Origin: Halomonas alkaliantarctica
GTDB taxonomy: Bacteria > Pseudomonadota > Gammaproteobacteria > Pseudomonadales > Halomonadaceae
Length of the DNA stretch: 64,000 bases
Assembly: GCF_029854215.1 (NCBI RefSeq)
Contig: NZ_CP122961.1
Location: 2,356,001 to 2,420,000 of the forward strand
Direction of reading: 5' to 3'
In this document: positions 1 through 55,374 of the stretch, in pieces
Layout: each line of letters starts with the position of its first letter
How positions within the stretch are numbered: the first letter of the stretch is position 1
The notes under the pieces: generated by a model
What the model was told of the DNA's origin: nothing
The model's input: the letters and a program-made list of their open reading frames with translations, nothing else
Database searches by the model: none
Position numbers and translations under genes: made by a program

Positions 1-1074
<1,074 letters not shown>

Positions 1075-1099
1075 TTAGGTGGCCAAATTCACTATGCCA

Positions 1100-1537
1100 C
1101 TACATATCCACCGACCGTGAGAGCGCAGATTTATACCGGACCAGATCCTCTTTCAGCATAAGGGGAAGCTCTAAGCCCAGCAAATTGACTGTTTTATAGC
1201 GAGAGAAATCTATATTGAGCGGAACCCACGTCTCGCTGCCCGCATCAAAGATTCGCGGACCGTCAGCGCTACCTACCTCCACTTTAATGCCTGCATACTT
1301 GAACTGGACGTAGGTTAGGTCCCAGCCTTCCTCCTGACGGTGAGCGGCCGCCTTTAATACAAATTCCTGACCATCCTGAACCACTGACGAAAAGTGTTTG
1401 CCAGGGACGAAAAGGTCGAGGTCATTCAGGTTACCCTCAGAGCCATATCCCTTAGCAGCGAGTCCCCCACAGATCAGAAAAGGGATATTCCTATCTCTCA
1501 GTAACCCCACAATCCATTGGGCTGCTAAATGATGCAC
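1100..1537 (-). pseudogene. Nucleotidyltransferase-like cassette gene, 3' end replaced by the IS
   Basis: This is the third cassette from intI. The remaining 145 aa contain a nucleotidyltransferase signature, ICGGLAAKGYGSEGNLNDLD, near residues 21-40: a GG helix start followed by a D-x-D-like LNDLDLFV. Such small proteins resemble the nucleotidyltransferase half of AbiEii/MNT-type proteins, but the reaction cannot be assigned. The start is a GTG at 1537 preceded by a strong AAAGGAGG; the longer ATG frame begins inside attC. The protein stops abruptly after SRSVDM exactly where the IS3 element begins, so the natural C-terminus and this cassette's own attC are lost. Whether the shortened protein is active is unknown. 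Confidence 0.7.
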
Positions 1538-1552
1538 GCCTCCTCCTTTTGC

Positions 1553-1677
1553 GCATAACCCCCAATTAAGTAGTGAGCAACGCAAAAGCTAAGCCACTGC
1601 ATAGAACCTTAAACACTAAACTCACTGCAAACCCAGAGCGTCAAGCGTTGCGAATCTGCTTAAATTTTTTGTTAGCT
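1553..1677 (-). other. attC recombination site of the second cassette (VCR-like length, 125 bp)
   Basis: Read on the - strand, it runs from R'' AGCTAAC (1677-1671) to R' GTTATGC (1559-1553). TAAC pairs with GTTA at the ends. AATT[T]AAG pairs with CTTAATT leaving one unpaired T, and GCAACGC pairs with GCGTTGC further in. Nested stems with an extrahelical base in L'' are the hallmark of folded attC sites recognised by integron integrases. The length is like Vibrio cholerae repeats. It begins 7 bp after the stop of the SnoaL-like gene, the normal place. Confidence 0.82.
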
Positions 1678-1684
1678 GCGCGTT

Positions 1685-2065
1685 TTAATCTTGTACGATA
1701 TTTACCCACTTGGCTCGCCACTCTTGTGCTTCCATTGGATCTGGCCAAAACTCCTTTTGCTTACTAATTAATCCATTTTCAACGGTATGAAATGTAATAG
1801 CGCGTGCTTTTTGCACACTATCTGTAACTGAAACATCAGTGACAACCGTTGCGCCGTCACAAACTACCGAATGAATTTCAAACTCCCAAACAGCGTGGAC
1901 AGGGTAATGAGAATTGATAGAAGTAAAGTTGTCTCTGCCAATAATGAGCTCACCTGATTGAGGCCAGAAACCTTCAAAATCAGGACTAAGCCACTCACTC
2001 GCTTTGACAAAATCATTGGTTTTCATCGCATCCCAAAAAGCTAGGACGACTTCCTTTGAATCCAT
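1685..2065 (-). CDS. SnoaL/NTF2-like fold cassette protein
   Basis: A 126-aa protein, second cassette of the integron. The pattern is that of NTF2/SnoaL-like small proteins: an N-terminal helix pair (VVLAFWDAMKTNDFVKASEW), a PDFEGFWP segment, then curved beta strands rich in V/T and ending near KQKEFWPDP. Members of this fold range from isomerases and dehydratases to binding or stress proteins, so no reaction can be named. I start at ATG 2065 (MDSKEVV) because the upstream ATG in frame lies within the attC of the preceding cassette. No good Shine-Dalgarno is visible. It is expressed, if at all, from the integron promoter or by read-through from cassette 1. Confidence 0.72.
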   Translation of the reverse strand: MDSKEVVLAFWDAMKTNDFVKASEWLSPDFEGFWPQSGELIIGRDNFTSINSHYPVHAVWEFEIHSVVCDGATVVTDVSVTDSVQKARAITFHTVENGLISKQKEFWPDPMEAQEWRAKWVNIVQD

Positions 2066-2077
2066 TGTTTTCTCTGC

Positions 2078-2149
2078 CCCTAACGCCCGCATTTGCGGCT
2101 GGTTTGGAGCGCAGCGGAAAACCAGTCCGACAACATGCGTTTGTTATGT
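2078..2149 (-). other. attC recombination site of the first cassette (72 bp)
   Basis: On the - strand it runs from R'' ACATAAC (2149-2143) to R' GTTAGGG (2084-2078). The ends pair TAAC/GTTA. The L boxes pair as CGCAT[G]TTG with CAAATGCG, leaving one unpaired G. A central stem CTGGTTT/AAACCAG closes a 13-nt loop. This is a textbook attC architecture. It begins 3 bp after the stop of the first cassette gene, and the GTTAGGG end marks the junction with the second cassette. Confidence 0.92.
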
Positions 2150-2152
2150 GTT

Positions 2153-3097
2153 TTACGCGTGCTCAATTTCTTTCTTAAATTGTGATTTGTTAAAAACAGA
2201 CACATTAAATCCCCTAAAGATTGATGACTTATCTTTTACCTTATTGGACCAAGCATTGCCTACTACCAATAACGTATCTCCAGGCGAGATGATTTCTGAA
2301 AATTTCTCTTTGGCGAGTTGTAGTTTCGGGATAAATATAGTTTTTTCGTTATTGGAATCAAGTGATTGACTGTAGCATTGAAAACTCCACGGAAAGTATT
2401 TTGCATCTTTGTAGAAATTAACCTCTCCTTTAACAGTAAGGTTTACCGCAACTGGATGTGAAACACTTTCTTTGAGCAAACGATTGAAAAGTATTTGATA
2501 TCTTGTTTCGTCATAATAGAAATCATTCCAAGAAACGAAACCATTTTTGTATTGTATTTTTACAAGTTCTTTCAGCTCTTCGACATCTGCTGACTCTTGG
2601 ATTAAGGCTCTTAACTTGGCAATTCCTGCTGCAGACCGAAAATAGGAGGCTAATTGTTGCTCGGAACTAATGTAGTTCCTGCGTGTTGATAAATGCTTGC
2701 TCGTTTCGAAGTCACCGCCAGTCTCAACTAAATCCTGAGCCACCTTTTGTGCATCCATTAGAATATTCATTCTAAACAGATAGCTTCCATCATTTTGTCT
2801 CTCAAATATAGGGTTGGTATCTTCTACTGAGCTGGACTCTGCGACTAAAAGGTCAACAGCTCCTTTTACTGTGTAACTGCATTCATTACTATGTTCAGCC
2901 TCCTGCCACAACTTTAAGTACGCAGCCACAGTTCTACTAGAAGATTTTCGGGTATAGGAGGATACATACTGAACATCAGTTCCACAGTATTTGCAATTGA
3001 GGTTTCCATTGTCTGACTTACTTAATTTGGAAATATGAAAGATCCTATCTCCGCAGTCATTTTTTTTTGCGGAATCCATTTTAATGCCTTTCCCCAA
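2153..3097 (-). CDS. Integron cassette protein with Cys/His zinc-binding-like N-terminus, function unknown
   Basis: A 314-aa protein, the cassette next to attI and so the one best placed for expression. Residues about 29-78 carry CKYCG and later AEHSNEC, a CxxC...HxxxxC pattern like a small zinc-binding module; a similar arrangement is found in CoiA-like N-termini, which is only an analogy. The middle is helical and charged. The last 100 residues look beta-rich (GEVNFYKD, GDTLLVVGNAW), perhaps an OB-like fold, which is inference. The start is a TTG at 3097 with AAGGAG 7 nt upstream; an ATG at 3079 with AAAGG upstream is an alternative. Base composition is clearly more AT-rich than the housekeeping genes downstream, as expected of a captured cassette. 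I do not recognise the family. Confidence 0.75.
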   Translation of the reverse strand: MGKGIKMDSAKKNDCGDRIFHISKLSKSDNGNLNCKYCGTDVQYVSSYTRKSSSRTVAAYLKLWQEAEHSNECSYTVKGAVDLLVAESSSVEDTNPIFERQNDGSYLFRMNILMDAQKVAQDLVETGGDFETSKHLSTRRNYISSEQQLASYFRSAAGIAKLRALIQESADVEELKELVKIQYKNGFVSWNDFYYDETRYQILFNRLLKESVSHPVAVNLTVKGEVNFYKDAKYFPWSFQCYSQSLDSNNEKTIFIPKLQLAKEKFSEIISPGDTLLVVGNAWSNKVKDKSSIFRGFNVSVFNKSQFKKEIEHA

Positions 3098-3122
3098 TTG
3101 GTATCTCCTTACTTATTTAGAC

Positions 3123-3190
3123 ACATAACAGTTTATTAGTGCGCATGCGCGTTTTTCTGGAAGGCTCAATCCTGCCAAAAACTGCCAACC
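3123..3190 (-). other. Putative attI site and first cassette junction
   Basis: On the - strand GTTATGT (3129-3123) is the crossover-type heptamer just ahead of the first cassette gene's ribosome binding site, as expected where a cassette joins attI. The limits of attI are approximate. No experimentally defined attI resembles this closely enough for me to mark integrase-binding sites with confidence. Confidence 0.55.
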
Positions 3191-3393
3191 AGTTGATTAA
3201 ACTGGAAAATAATCAATACCCATACAAAACTCGCTAGAAAAATGCGCATGCGCGTAATCACTTTAAGTCATCTTTACAAATTGCACATAAACATACAATT
3301 TAATTTATCAACTTATTGTTATTTAAAGGCTTTATTAAGACACAGCTGCAAATTTGAGCGCTTACTCCGCTAACGATATAGAAAAACGCGCAT
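3145..3393. repeat. Three copies of a 14-bp motif AGAAAAAYGCGCAT between the cassettes and intI
   Basis: Copies occur at 3145-3158 (- strand, Y=C), 3236-3249 (+ strand, Y=T) and 3380-3393 (+ strand, Y=C). The first two continue into GCGC, giving the palindrome GCGCATGCGC, and face each other as an inverted pair about 100 bp apart. The surrounding 3130-3455 stretch is otherwise AT-rich and has no gene. It should contain attI, the cassette promoter Pc and the intI promoter, but I could not place a convincing Pc. Confidence 0.7.
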
Positions 3394-3416
3394 TGCAGAT
3401 TAAGAATACCTGATTA

Positions 3417-3436
3417 TACTGGCTTTATATACAGCA
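3417..3436 (+). promoter_or_regulatory. LexA-box-like site ahead of intI
   Basis: TACTGGCTTTATATACAGCA matches the gammaproteobacterial LexA operator TACTG-N10-CAGTA in both half-sites except at the CTGT position (CTGG here) and the outer T near the 3' end. It ends 19 bp before the intI ATG. LexA control of integron integrases, linking cassette shuffling to the SOS response, is established for several integrons, and the position fits. Confidence 0.7.
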
Positions 3437-3455
3437 ATTGAGAGGACTTCCCCAA

Positions 3456-4417
3456 ATGGCCAGTAGCCCTTTCCTAAATGAGGTTCGCACATCTATTCGC
3501 GTCCGTGGCATGAGCATTCGGACTGAGAAAACATACATTTACTGGATTCGCTTTTTTATTCGATACAACCATTGCCGTCATCCAACTGAAATGGGGGCAG
3601 CCGAAGTTGTGGGCTTCCTCGGTCACCTGGCCACTGAACGCAATGTCGCTGTCAACACCCAACGTATAGCGTTGAACGCGCTGGCATATTTGTATAACCA
3701 ATTCCTGAAACAGCCATTGGGTGATCTTGAATTCAAGCATGCCTCCAAGCCACAACGGTTGCCTGAAGTGCTCATGGCGGCTGAAGTCGCTAGTATCCTC
3801 AAGGAGATGAGCGGTAGAGATAAACTAATTTTTTCGCTTCTTACGGTTCTGGCCTTCGAATTACTGAGTGTCTGCGCTTAAGGGTAAAAGACATTGATTA
3901 CTCCCGTGGATCAATAACGGTGAGAGATGGTAAAGGTGCAAAAGACAGAGTGACCATCTTTAGCCCGTCCCTTTATGAAAGCACGCGCGATATCATCAGC
4001 AATGCGTTAGCACTACAAGAACGAGACAACCAGGACAGTATTGGTCCTTCTATTCCAGGTGTTTTGGCAAAAAAATACCCTTCTGCTTACCGGCAGCATG
4101 CATGGATGTATTTGTTTCCATCTAGCAGCATTTCTCGCCATCCCGTTACTGGCGTGATGTGTCGCCACCATTTGCATGATTCTGTACCCAGGAAGGCGTT
4201 AAAAAAAGCCGTGGCGGCTGCAAAATTGACTAATAAGCGGATCTCTTGCCATACATTTCGTCATAGCTTTGCTACCGAGCTACTTAGAAACGGTAGGGAT
4301 ATTCGAACGGTTCAAGAGTTACTTGGGCATTCTGATGTATCTACCACACAGATTTATACCCATGTGCTTGGACAACATTTTGCGGGCTTAACAAGCCCTC
4401 TGGATGCTATAACTTAG
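3456..4417 (+). pseudogene. intI: Integron integrase IntI (tyrosine recombinase), broken by a one-base deletion
   Basis: Restoring one base gives a protein of about 320 aa, normal for IntI. The N-terminal SAM-like core-binding domain starts MASSPFLNEVRTSIRVRGMS. The catalytic domain has the box II signature [12 protein letters not shown] and [16 protein letters not shown] with the nucleophilic Tyr. Between them lies the IntI-specific extra helix ([17 protein letters not shown]), which separates integron integrases from other Xer-like enzymes. Near 3852 the frame slips: one extra G would give [16 protein letters not shown], which includes the first catalytic Arg. Instead the frame runs to a stop at 3881, and the C-terminal part is open again to 4417. 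ATG 3456 has GAGAGGA upstream. The cassettes lie divergently on the other side, as in chromosomal integrons. Confidence 0.93.
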
Positions 4418-4814
4418 TTACTAAGCATTTACTCTAACCACGCTACCGCCACGGCGCACCTGGGTTACGTTAAAACGCTCCAATCGCAACCGTGTTTGAC
4501 TCATTAACATACCTTATTGATAAATTTAGCTTAGGTCCCGTGTCGGTGCGAAAAGTGAGTTGTCTTTTAGTTGAATAGCAACATTAGTGGCGCTGCGAGA
4601 TGTTTTCGCGGGTGCCTCATCGCTCGTTCCTCGCATATTCGTTACCACGCGATAGAAGGTTGCTTTCTTACATTTCAGTAACACCGCCAGCATTGCGGCT
4701 TAATCTTCGCGCGATGGAGCGCCCTCCCACAAGGTTGACGGTCTGATGCTCTGTTGCCACTGGCCTTCCTCCGCAAATCCGATTAGCCTGCTAATTCACT
4801 ATTAAGGGTTTGGC
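4418..4814. other. Gene-poor gap after intI
   Basis: About 400 bp between the integrase and the next intact gene. It contains no attC-like structure or terminator that I can see. On the - strand there is a 27-codon frame at 4421-4504 (starting MSQTRLRLERF, with AAGG upstream) and the degenerate frame listed separately. It is probably the scarred outer edge of the integron. Confidence 0.5.
4526..4790 (-). pseudogene. Possible remnant of a small unknown gene
   Basis: On the - strand an open stretch of nearly 90 codons is interrupted by a single TAA about one third of the way in. The part after the stop could start at ATG 4693 (MLAVLLKCKKATFYRVV) and would give 55 aa. The part before it reads sensibly (EEGQWQQSIRPSTLWEGAP). 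The composition looks protein-like, but I recognise no family, and an open frame of this size could arise by chance. Confidence 0.3.
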
Positions 4815-6128
4815 ATGCAAGAGACAACTCCTCGGCAACGCCTGGCGGGCGTGCTGATTCTGCTTGGATTGATCGCACAGATTATTGGCTTTACCGGCTG
4901 GTTGAGCACCGCGCATGCGGTGAGCTATTTGCTGTGGGCGGCGGTTGTATTGCTGTGGCGAGATATTCCTAAACGTTCGCGTATTCAGGCGGGCGTCCTC
5001 ATTGCGCTAGGCGTTGGCATGCTGCTAGTAGCGCGGTTTGTATATGACGCTGAGGTGGATTGGCCCGCGATGTTGCAGGGCAATTCGTTTGTGGCGGCCA
5101 TGCTGGTGGGCGTTAGCTTTATTTCGCTGATTGGTAAGCAAGGTAACAAGGGTGCGACGGGAAGCCGAGTGACTGGGGCTGGTGGTGTACTGCGCACCTG
5201 GTTGGGAGTGCACTTCCTGGGTACGATTTTGAATCTGTCTACCGTATTTATGGTGGGCGATAAGCTGGCTCGGCGGGGGCCGCTGACGACGCCACAACTG
5301 TTAGCGCTCAACCGAGGGCTTTCCAGCGCGGCGCTGTGGTCGCCGTTTTTTGCTTCCATGGGCGTTGTGATCGCACTGGTGCCGGAGGTTGAGTATGCTC
5401 AAATTGCCGTGGTGGGCTTTCCCATGGCGATGCTGTCGGGGCTGTTAACCACGCTGGAACTTAGGCGCCGATTTGACCTCAGCGAAGTGGATGGCTATTC
5501 ACTGGCGCCACGCAGCCTGTTTATGCCGGTGGGTATGGCAGCGTTGGTGATGCTGTTTCACTTTGTGCTCACCCCTGCCCTTACGATTGTCAGCATTATC
5601 ACTTTTCTACTGCCCAGCGTGGCGGTATTGAGCAACCTAACCCATGGGCCCCGCTTTACTATGCACCGCCTTCGCCAGCACACCACCACGCGGCTGCCCG
5701 CAATGCGTGGGGAGGTTTCGCTGTTTTTAGCGGCAGGGCTATTAACGATTGGCCTTTCGACGCTGGTCACGGCAGCGGCTGGCAGCGACTGGACGCTGTT
5801 CACCCGTTTTGGCGCGCCCCAGGCAATGCTTAGCTTTGCGGCCATTACGTTGAGCGCACTGGCAGGTTTGCATCCAATTATTGGCGTGTCGGTGCTAGCG
5901 TCAATACTTAACTTGCAGAACGGCGAGCAGACCGTGTTTGCATTTGTGGCATTAACGTCGTGGGCAGTGGGCACCAGTGTGGGCCCACTTTCAGGAATCA
6001 ACCTCTCGCTGCAGGGGCGCTACGGGGTAAGCGGTTACCGCATGATGAAAAACAACCTGTTCTATGCAGCGATAATGAGCCTGCTTTCGCTGGGGGCGAT
6101 CGCAGGCGTCAGTTATCTGGCAGGTTAA
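4815..6128 (+). CDS. Multi-pass inner-membrane protein, unknown transporter-like family
   Basis: A 437-aa, very hydrophobic protein with roughly a dozen membrane segments and short loops. Notable charged or polar loops are GDKLARRGPLTTPQLLALN near residue 150 and a Gly/Ser-rich stretch SWAVGTSVGPLSGINLSLQG near residue 385. Two inverted halves separated by a cytoplasmic HRLRQHTTTRLPAMRGE loop suggest an ion-transporter-like (IT superfamily) architecture, which is inference. ATG 4815 has AAGGG at a good distance. It is the first intact gene after the integron and is convergent with the DUF1451 gene, so probably a single transcription unit. Substrate unknown. Confidence 0.7.
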   Translation: MQETTPRQRLAGVLILLGLIAQIIGFTGWLSTAHAVSYLLWAAVVLLWRDIPKRSRIQAGVLIALGVGMLLVARFVYDAEVDWPAMLQGNSFVAAMLVGVSFISLIGKQGNKGATGSRVTGAGGVLRTWLGVHFLGTILNLSTVFMVGDKLARRGPLTTPQLLALNRGLSSAALWSPFFASMGVVIALVPEVEYAQIAVVGFPMAMLSGLLTTLELRRRFDLSEVDGYSLAPRSLFMPVGMAALVMLFHFVLTPALTIVSIITFLLPSVAVLSNLTHGPRFTMHRLRQHTTTRLPAMRGEVSLFLAAGLLTIGLSTLVTAAAGSDWTLFTRFGAPQAMLSFAAITLSALAGLHPIIGVSVLASILNLQNGEQTVFAFVALTSWAVGTSVGPLSGINLSLQGRYGVSGYRMMKNNLFYAAIMSLLSLGAIAGVSYLAG

Positions 6129-9915: not shown

Positions 9916-10979
9916 AGGTATTTGCTGATCAGCTACCCGCTGCGTTGGCAAAAAAGCTTCCCCGCGTGGTGATTGTAGCCGGTGATGAACCCTTACAGCA
10001 TCGCGACGCCTGCGATGCGGTAAGAGCCGCAGCTCGCCAGGCGGGTGTTGAAGAGCGCGAAGTACTCGATGTCGAGCCCAACTTTGCTTGGGGTCGATTG
10101 ATGGAAATGTCGAGTAACCTCTCGCTGTTTGCGACCAGCAAGCTAATGGAGTTGCGCTTAGGCAATCACAAGCTAGGCCAAGAAGGCAGTAAAGCGTTAG
10201 CGCAGTATGCCGAAACCCTGGATAACAGCGATGATGTTCTGCTCATTGGCATGGGCAAGCTAGATGCCAAGCAGCAAAAAAGCGCCTGGTTTAAAACACT
10301 GGATAAGCACGGCTTGTTTGTACCGGTTTGGCCGGTGGATGCCTCCCGCTTAGGTTATTGGCTGCGTGACCGCGCCTCGCTGCACGGCTTACAAATTGAC
10401 TTGGAAGCCGCTCGCCTGCTGGGTGAGCGCACCGAAGGCAATTTACTGGCCGCTGACCAAGAGTTGCAAAAGCTGGCATTAATCCACCCCCAAGGCACCC
10501 GCCTGAACGTTGAGAGCATTGCCCAAGGGGTTGAAGACAGCACACGCTTTGATGTTTTCAATTTGGCCGATGCCTGCTTGAAAGGCGAGCCCAGCCGCGC
10601 TTCGCGCATTGTTAATGGCCTACGCAGCGAAGGCGTTGAGGCGCCTATTGTGCTATGGGCGCTTAGCCGAGAGCTACGCACCCTACTCTCGTTACATCAG
10701 CACCTGGATCAAGGGCAGAGCTTTGAGCATGCCTGCAAAACCCAAAAGCCGATGATTTTTGATAAGCGCCGCCCTGCTTACCAGAAAGCGATTGGTCGCC
10801 TTCCCATGAAGCGGCTGCATAAACTGCTGTTAATGGCCCAACGTCTGGATTTAGCCGTTAAGGGCGCGGCGGCAGTACCACTATGGCCAGGACTACACGA
10901 TTTAGCCATGACCATGGCCGGTGGCCGAGGATTGCTCTCTGAATCGGCCTGGACCTATCGCATTAGTGCAAATAATTAG
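9912..10979 (+). CDS. holA: DNA polymerase III delta subunit
   Basis: A 355-aa clamp-loader subunit that opens the beta sliding clamp. The N-terminal AAA+-like domain has the degenerate nucleotide-binding start RVVIVAGDEPLQHRDACDAV near residue 19. The sequence FDVFNLADACLKG near 214 and the C-terminal collar-domain helices are typical of HolA. The start is the GTG at 9912, which overlaps the lptE stop; no upstream alternative is available without a larger overlap. In E. coli nadD follows here, but in this genome nadD lies about 36 kb further on. Confidence 0.96.
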
Positions 10980-53693: not shown

Positions 53694-55099
53694 GCTTTAC
53701 CCTCCTTGGCAGCGGCTAACGCGGCGAGCAGGCGTTCATGCACGCCCTCAAAGCCACCGTTGGACATCACCACAATACGGTCTAGTGGTGACGCTTGTGT
53801 AACCACCGCTGCCACCAACGTATCGATATCGCTAAATAGCTGGGCATGCGCCCCTTGCGTGGCGACCAGTTCTTCCATCGACCAGTCGAGCCCAGCGGGC
53901 TGGAACCAAAATACGCCATCAGCGTCAGCCACGCTCTCGATTAACCGCTCGCGCAGGGCGCCTAAACGCATGGTGTTCGAGCGCGGTTCGATGACCACCA
54001 GCAGGCGTCCTTTAATGGTGGCCGCACGTAGCCCTTTGAGCGTCGCGGCAATCGCCGTGGGATGGTGGGCGAAATCATCGATCACCTGGATGCCATTGAT
54101 TTCACCGCGCACTTCCTGGCGCCTTCTGGGTGTTTCAAAGCGCGCCAGCGCCGCACAGCCACGGGCTAAATCAACCCCACACAAATGCGCCGCCGACAGC
54201 GCTGCCAGCGCATTGCGGGCGTTATGCTCGCCGGTCAGCGCCCACTCGACGACCCCGTCCTCATCTTGGCCATTTGTATCCTGACCGGGCTCCCCACCGC
54301 GATAAATCACCTGGAAGCGACTGGCGTCGTCGCGCTCTAATTTCAGCTGCCACTCGCTCTTATCCTGATCACCAAAGTGCGCTACCGGTGTCCAAGCACC
54401 CTGGCTCAGCACGCGCTCAAGGGCGGGCTGCTCATCGGCAACTAATAAGTGGCCTTGGCTTGGCACGGTACGCACCAGGTGATGGAACTGGCGCTCAATG
54501 GCGGCCAAGTCGGGGAAGATATCGGCGTGGTCATACTCAAGGTTGTTGAGTATGGCGATATGCGGACGGTAGTGAACAAACTTGGAACGTTTATCGAAGA
54601 ACGCCGTGTCGTACTCGTCAGCTTCCACCACAAACGGCGCTTGCGGATCTCCCAAGCGCGCCGACACGCCAAAATTGCGCGGCACGCCGCCAATTAAAAA
54701 CCCCGGTGCTAAGCCACCACTCTCTAACAGCCAAGCTAATACGCTTGCGGTAGTGGTTTTTCCGTGAGTACCCGCCACGGCAATGACGCGTCGCCCAGGC
54801 AGCACGTGCTCAGCCAACCACTGCGCCCCCGAGGTATACGGCAGGCCGCTATTGAGTAGCGCCTCAACCTCTTCATTGCCCCGTGACAAGGCGTTGCCCA
54901 CAACGACAATATCCGGCGCTGGCGACAGATGCTCGGCGTGATAGCCCTCCATTAAGGTGATGCCCGCATCAACCAACTGGGTGCTCATGGGTGGGTAAAC
55001 ATTCTGATCGGAGCCACTCACTTGGTGCCCCATTTCACGCGCCAGCAGTGCCAGGCTACCCATAAAGGTGCCGCAAATACCCATAATATGCAGATGCAT
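53690..55099 (-). CDS. mpl: UDP-MurNAc:L-Ala-D-Glu-meso-DAP ligase (murein tripeptide recycling)
   Basis: A 469-aa Mur-ligase-family enzyme that joins the recycled murein tripeptide to UDP-MurNAc. The N-terminus [20 protein letters not shown] is the MurC/Mpl nucleotide-sugar fold with the Mpl-typical ICGTFMG. The ATP-binding loop is [18 protein letters not shown], and the central motif is HNARNALAA. The set of peptidoglycan genes elsewhere in the window fits active wall turnover. The 275-bp upstream region toward the glutaredoxin gene is AT-rich and has no other gene. Confidence 0.96.
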
Positions 55100-55374
55100 G
55101 GCTTTCGCCCCGTTAATCGCCAGTAAACTAATTTACTAAAAGCCAAAAAAATGGCGTAAAAATAACTAAACAGTTTAAAAATAGCTAAGCAGCCTAGCAT
55201 GTTGACTCTATTTGCTCATCTACTCATCGCCATAAACGGTGACCAAGTGCCCCCTCAAGTGACAAATCCCTTTAGTTGTTGCAGGATGCGGCCACTGTTT
55301 ATTAACAATGACTATCTCTTTCTTTCCACTCGCCACGCTGATGTAAGCCAACACATCAGCATAGGAGCCTATCG

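Follow-up and report, generated by a model that had tools for sequence, protein, structure and literature searches.

In this study, we have analysed a 64-kb stretch of the genome of Halomonas alkaliantarctica (hereafter the window; base 1 is its first letter and negative positions lie to the left of it), in which a gene for an integron integrase, intI, faces away from an array of gene cassettes separated by attC recombination sites. The locus is very probably a sedentary chromosomal integron whose integrase has been lost; the module formed by the attI site and intI would earlier have been replaced in place, and the array would now be frozen in cis. We describe here its parts, its locus, the boundaries of its cassettes, the broken reading frame of intI and the alternation of integrase types at the same site in related genomes. 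The genus of this genome and of its close relatives is taken as Vreelandella (Halomonadaceae); G000 denotes the genome under study, other G numbers the genomes of relatives, and L numbers the loci extracted from them.

Integron integrases recombine the folded single strand of attC with a double-stranded attI site. In the history that we propose, a working IntI would have inserted the cassettes at attI (3127-3129), all with the same orientation and directed away from intI; in this lineage, a module of type B most likely took the place of the earlier attI-intI module at the same site; intI would have been frameshifted after this replacement; and an IS3 insertion sequence (IS) would have cut cassette 3 and its attC. 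The array would be frozen in cis because of both the frameshift and the cut, and any remaining mobility would need an integrase acting in trans. Judged from its sequence, the locus is an integron remnant. An initial annotation had described a decaying chromosomal integron, a description that holds; intI is split near 3850 and the array is cut by an IS.

The integrase gene and its attI site

The integrase gene, its upstream box and the attI element occupy the following positions.

3438..3881, + strand: first open frame of intI, N-terminal SAM-like domain (TIGR02249, 114 bits; PF13495, 94 bits; 2A3V, E 2e-19)
3824..4417, + strand: second open frame of intI (TIGR02249, 199 bits for 3920-4417; PF00589; 2A3V, E 9e-39, in an alignment that spans the extra region)
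3419..3434, + strand: LexA-like box CTGG-N8-ACAG upstream of intI
3127..3265, + strand: attI of type B, with the crossover in AAC at 3127-3129 (GTT on the cassette-sense strand), from the alignment of type-B loci and a match to model R3
3141..3150, no strand assigned: first attI palindrome, GCGCATGCGC
3244..3253, no strand assigned: second attI palindrome, GCGCATGCGC, with inverted flank, 103 bp from the first

Both frames match the respective halves of 2A3V, the structure of the V. cholerae integron integrase IntI, and the region between boxes 1 and 2, which marks integron integrases, is aligned to 2A3V in the second frame; the TIGR02249 family cut-off of 265 bits applies to the whole protein, of which each frame is half. 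The second frame carries the box 1 arginine, the IntI-specific extra region and the HxxR, H and Y motifs. The frameshift near 3850, directly before box 1, leaves two frames in place of an intact, expressible integrase, and no intact type-B integrase was found elsewhere in this genome. In the integrase tree, the sequences of Advenella faeciporci and Shewanella mangrovi cluster with type B (support 99/95); the rooting of this tree says little, the two Xer-type outgroup rows having very long branches.

That intI encodes an Xer-like recombinase beside palindromes resembling attC by chance can be given practically no weight: XerC/D models do match intI at lower score, but against this reading stand the IntI-specific region aligned to 2A3V, the covariation of attC and the E of about 1e-22 that both sites obtain with held-out models. 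Xer identity is refuted by a best match that is not XerC/D and by the presence of the extra region. The check that the initial annotation had set for the integrase came out in its favour, with matches to TIGR02249 and 2A3V that include the extra region and a grouping with integron integrases.

The attI element of type B is characterized by GCGCATGCGC 11 bases from the AAC and a second copy 103-106 bp further on, with inverted flanks. The pair is present in seven of eight Vreelandella loci, in G263 and in S. mangrovi, one G080 copy having a single mismatch, and G056 and G086 hold one exact copy beside intI. Among 390 genomes of the order, 10 contain exact pairs spaced by 85-105 bases, many of them with no integrase alongside; the reversed control gave 0. 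In the window, attI directly adjoins the first cassette, as expected of a chromosomal integron. Before intI, a CTGT-N8-ACAG box is found in G042, G050, G056, G080, G086 and Shewanella mangrovi, CTGG replaces CTGT in G000 and G263, and no CTG-N10-CAG box was found in G028, G039 and G067; we infer that the box of the window may place intI under SOS control through LexA.

The attC sites and the cassettes

The attC sites were searched in 84 kb (the window and 20 kb to its left) with two covariance models, both derived from other genomes and free of the window sites: R1, based on 53 attC sites over 73 positions, and R2, based on 21 sites, mostly Vibrio (17 of the 21 from two Vibrio loci), with 24 pairs. 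The array comprises the following features in the window.

2153..3097, - strand: open reading frame (ORF) of cassette 1, 314 amino acids (aa), no Pfam match, Cys/His-rich N-terminus
2077..2149, - strand: attC of cassette 1, of a type common in the genus (R1, 89.2 bits, E 1.3e-22)
1685..2092, - strand: ORF of cassette 2, SnoaL-like (PF12680, 37.7 bits), with ATG at 2092 or 2065
1552..1676, - strand: attC of cassette 2, Vibrio-like (R2, 94.2 bits, E 1e-22)
1100..1540, - strand: ORF of cassette 3, nucleotidyltransferase-like (weak DUF2204; PF09970, E 0.03, below cut-off)
1..1102, no strand assigned: in-window part of an IS3-family element, the whole of which spans about -155..1102

The coordinates first proposed for the two attC sites are borne out by these scores. 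Among the 22 pairs of R1, 18 show compensatory changes, and the model yields three matches at E<=5 in the 84 kb, all on the - strand and all within this array; R2 finds 1552-1676 and one weak match at 55099-55182 (E 0.82). The conserved folding of the attC sites and their single orientation are those of a chromosomal integron. That the two sites came from different sources, as the initial annotation had it, is supported by sequence comparison, one being of the genus type and the other Vibrio-like, with a cassette gene whose product is 84% identical at the amino acid level to that of a Vibrio array gene (L075:4431-4808). A few other loci of Vreelandella likewise contain sites similar to 1552-1676.

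The same annotation counted three cassettes and supposed that more might lie beyond base 1; the array does extend about 1.5 kb past it, and the total is at least four. From right to left, attI is followed by cassettes 1-3, the IS, a half attC, cassette 4 and a degenerate attC, which together make an array of about 4.6 kb. The half attC was delimited by eye at -459..-407 (R1 match at -438..-414, - strand, 14.9 bits, E 0.25) and the degenerate one lies at -1514..-1447 (- strand, 19.6 bits, E 0.011 with R1). Beyond the latter, a GH10 gene and an rlmF-like gene are found, which lie on the same side of the locus in some relatives. The interruption by an IS3 element also stands: its end takes the place of the 3' end of the cassette 3 ORF and provides the stop codon of this ORF, the homologue of which in Halomonas sp. 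PA16-9 is 7 residues longer. The transposase model NF033516 gives 53 bits over 721-1032 (- strand), below a cut-off of 160 set for the whole protein, and no second copy of the in-window part was found in this genome.

Exchange of the attI-intI module at a fixed locus

Two further features anchor the comparison with relatives.

4439..4495, no strand assigned: conserved motif of about 55 bp after the intI stop, common to loci of either integrase type
4815..6128, + strand: permease-like gene, the locus marker, followed by DUF1451 and leuS, from synteny

The permease-like gene (no Pfam match, the name resting on its hydrophobic sequence) is present in 80 of 82 genomes of the genus, and DUF1451 and leuS lie downstream of it in all five stretches of relatives that reach that far (L122, L124, L127, L138 and L140). 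We surveyed 79 loci over up to 19 kb before this gene, five of them with fewer than 800 bases upstream, and found an integrase or its remnants at 25: type A1 at 17, type B at seven and a distant remnant at one (G010); a remnant in G006 appears in only one of two locus surveys. A single open frame is retained in six of these 25, namely A1 in G021, G044, G055, G058 and G069, and B in G050. In the attC survey of 74 loci (five flank-gene contigs shorter than 2.3 kb were excluded), sites at E<=0.01 were found in 36, in all of which they point away from the permease gene, and 16 of these 36 loci have no integrase trace by the searches used. Such a fixed position is that of a sedentary integron, and the integron locus beside the permease and leuS genes is old in Vreelandella. 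With attC sites and no functional integrase nearby, the window locus is in effect a cluster of attC sites lacking integron-integrases (CALIN).

Types A1 and B, about 50% identical, alternate at this one locus. When integrase type is mapped on the permease gene tree, with 24 of its 56 rows labelled, it needs four changes, forced by supported branches; 0% of the bootstrap trees show a single type change, a single type-B clade is rejected (approximately unbiased test, p 4.8e-5), and G046, the sister of G000 on this tree, carries an A1 remnant. Homology starts at the AAC of attI in the eight Vreelandella type-B loci, with unrelated left sides in seven, the G056 contig ending there; among A1-like loci, 14 of 16 share one start at their own attI, again with unrelated left sides, the exceptions being L157 and L191. 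At the other end, either type stops short of the shared motif of about 55 bp by about 10-75 bases; no copy of this motif was found next to integrases of the third group in the genus. From these shared starts and ends it follows that attI and intI change together and that the exchange ends near the intI stop. Sequence comparison demonstrates the alternation of types, and the module has been exchanged repeatedly at this locus. Relatives of type B exist outside the genus, 87% identical in G086 (another family of the order) and 88% in Salinispirillum marinum (Saccharospirillaceae), further kin being found in Shewanella mangrovi and Advenella faeciporci. We infer the donor and the direction of the swap as well as its mechanism, which would be homologous recombination.

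An ancestral tandem of A1 and B resolved by differential loss, with no swap at all, is improbable. G050 and G080 do hold a type-B integrase together with a fragment of another type, but at different places, and the two types stand side by side at none of the 79 loci; moreover, both end at the same distance range from the same motif and begin at an equivalent attI, and type B has its 87% relative in another family.

A frameshift due to sequencing or assembly error, the integron still being active, is likewise unlikely. It would fit the single intI lesion, the conserved motifs across two frames, and a genome in one contig at 99.98% completeness, but 19 of the 25 integrase loci at this site in the genus are broken or fragmentary, so that a real lesion is the expectation, and the array too has been cut, by the IS.

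Several points weigh against the history proposed for the window. Only one lesion is visible in intI, which leaves room for a sequencing error, and the LexA-like box has one half site with one mismatch. The search for a sigma-70-like promoter (Pc) between 3000 and 4850 found 0, against 3.2 in shuffles. The degenerate and the half attC on the left are weak taken alone (E 0.011 and 0.25). The permease tree is that of one gene, which may itself recombine, and in the shuffle control 16 and 22 of 500 shuffles were as low; since type is clustered on this tree, much of the history of integrase type may be vertical.

Dispersed attI sites

A sequence model of the type-B attI element, R3, was built from 23 sites, that of the window among them. 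At E<=0.01 it has matches in 42 of the 82 Vreelandella genomes and, across the order, in 80 of 390, from 39 of 142 sampled genera, Vreelandella included; these surveys scored only 38 or 8 candidates per genome, and the site numbers are floors. All 19 genomes with an integrase at least 60% identical to type B fall among the 80. For a closer count, 19 single-contig genomes were chosen, mostly with prior matches, and 150 candidates were scored in them; after removal by hand of 38 of 121 matches, taken as echoes of the palindromic element that overlap it or lie on its opposite strand, 83 distinct sites at E<=0.001 were left in 17 genomes (G017 and G069 gave none), some of them among R3's own 23. 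The numbers per genome reach 14 in G205, 12 in G374, nine in G256, eight in G146 and six in G317. About nine of the 83 adjoin a type-B-related integrase, in some cases broken, and 17 of 85 site loci show any integrase homology, several loci being the same site.

These sites are read as attI because nearby attC matches lie on the expected side and strand: 52 of 52, 46 of 47 and 51 of 52 in three overlapping sets, a test that left the weakest of the 83 outside. Off-side matches are those at L274:2775-2843 (E 0.026) and L319:6917-6973 (E 8e-10). Loci with no attC match were L249 and L257 of 16 in the first set and L310 of 20 in the third, and 15 of 49 site loci with 1.5-kb flanks, in the second, had none on the cassette side. 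As a control, R3 was applied to 13 further integron loci, that of Advenella and 12 whose integrases belong to other clades, where it gave one weak match (L135, 17.8 bits).

G000 itself holds three attI sites of this type, one of them with intI. The second (G000:C1:3274057-3274197; L219 about 10057-10197) is degenerate, lacks intI and lies outside the R3 alignment; it heads an AbiGI-like gene (63.5 bits, cut-off 300), after which comes an attC at L219:10971-11045 (24.1 bits). The third is a weak match at 3946389-3946518. In G205, four attI sites stand in the same orientation within 8.2 kb (L312 385, 2592, 6164 and 8416), two of them followed by attC.

In G425, four orphan sites match the integrase-bearing copy from the crossover onwards, and the match ends 24-107 bases short of the intI start. 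Most alignable orphans keep about 140-370 bases (one keeps 500), a stretch that runs out close to the start codon of intI or ahead of it. Among the G146 copies, a, c, d and e still have the intI start with a few codons after it and then share one junction, and copies a, c and e retain a perfect LexA-type box. As homology ends before intI or at a common junction, the orphan ends favour the spread of a module already devoid of intI over many separate deletions, with the reserve that orphan tails are rich in short repeats, which makes the boundary uncertain and weakens such a reading.

On this basis, one may consider, as less probable than not, a distributed integron in many gammaproteobacteria of this order: a family of attI-promoter modules devoid of an integrase and scattered over the chromosome might serve as landing pads on which a single type-B-clade integrase acts in trans. 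The gene for this integrase would be gained, swapped and lost, and the pads and cassettes would stay. Action in trans is weakened by several many-site genomes (G146, G177 and G369) with no type-B integrase at E<=1e-80, the cut-off of the order-wide search, beyond which distant or fragmentary integrases fall outside the counts. We give even chances to the alternative, for which these same genomes speak, that the orphans are separate integrons, each of which lost its intI, with no common function: scraps of intI are kept at L247, L261, L265, L288, L301 and L324, but most alignable orphans end near or before the intI start and several G146 copies share one junction.

Relation to known integrons

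Loss of the integrase from integrons is already known. The sedentary integrons of Xanthomonas at ilvD have been described with one ancestral locus, widespread inactivation of intI and integrase-less arrays, all of which are shared with Vreelandella, and in X. arboricola a foreign intI lies beside an otherwise matching ilvD (97.1% versus 68.2% identity) (PMC12444791). As far as that description goes, Vreelandella differs in alternatives about 50% identical, in four changes on the flank-gene tree, in an attI that changes along with intI and in the permease-DUF1451-leuS neighbourhood. Prophage M16-3 carries a Shewanella-type attI with GCGCATGCGC beside the crossover, as in the window, which heads a complete integron and a CALIN (PMC9892861); unlike that account of one prophage, GCGCATGCGC is paired here, and the element was found in 39 of 142 sampled genera with up to 14 sites per genome.

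Surveys across bacteria, in neither main text of which Halomonas appears, have reported about one third to 46% of intI inactivated and LexA boxes before intI (PMC2426708, PMC3108266). For Halomonas sulfidaeris, one table row lists a CALIN (PMC10295459), which shares with the window an attC cluster lacking an integrase, in a row that gives no locus, attI or integrase history; a literature search for Halomonas, attC and integron gave that paper alone, and no report of a Vreelandella integron was found. As to Vibrio superintegrons, the attC at 1552-1676 and the SnoaL cassette resemble theirs, whereas the window array is short, its attC types are mixed and its integrase clade is different. No report of attI dispersed across genomes was recognised among the papers listed, in a weak test where attI queries were swamped by unrelated words and subscription papers lay mostly outside; the genome-wide scale of the dispersal is, within this search, without a precedent that we found.

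Integrase-less cassette arrays are common. As many of those in this order begin with an attI that can be recognised, the question of their origin becomes testable: such arrays would be either remnants of complete integrons or pads that one enzyme supplies in trans. In this regard, the locus is a natural experiment, in which integrase modules are exchanged and the neighbouring genes stay.

Other features of the array and its flanks

The C-terminal part of the cassette 1 protein is predicted to adopt an OB-like fold. It belongs to a family of 308-314 aa, of which 59 proteins were found, that of the window included, in records named Pseudomonas, Halomonas faecis, Alloalcanivorax, Methylobacter and Aeromonas, among others. 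Cassette 4 (L009:18560-19546) is unusual in its composition, with a MarR gene and, divergent from it, a gene for a hydrophobic protein. No Rfam family matched on the cassette array itself; an isrC match at 914-1036 (41.1 bits, cut-off 39) lies wholly inside the IS3-family element and is therefore probably IS sequence, not a small RNA gene. To the left of the IS there is an apparent fragment of a second IS, judged by eye. IS sequence within the array was the only mobile-element sequence noticed, and no systematic search of the flanks for transposon, plasmid or relaxase genes was made.

Between intI and the permease gene (4600-4735) lies an interspersed repeat, GCGGGTGCCTC..CGTTACCACGCG, which also occurs upstream of the permease gene in many relatives and is present in several copies in some genomes. 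In G058 (L015 2804-3604, the same site as L163), the intact type-A1 intI has beside it a second, divergently oriented tyrosine recombinase that shares about 30% identity with the integrase pieces.

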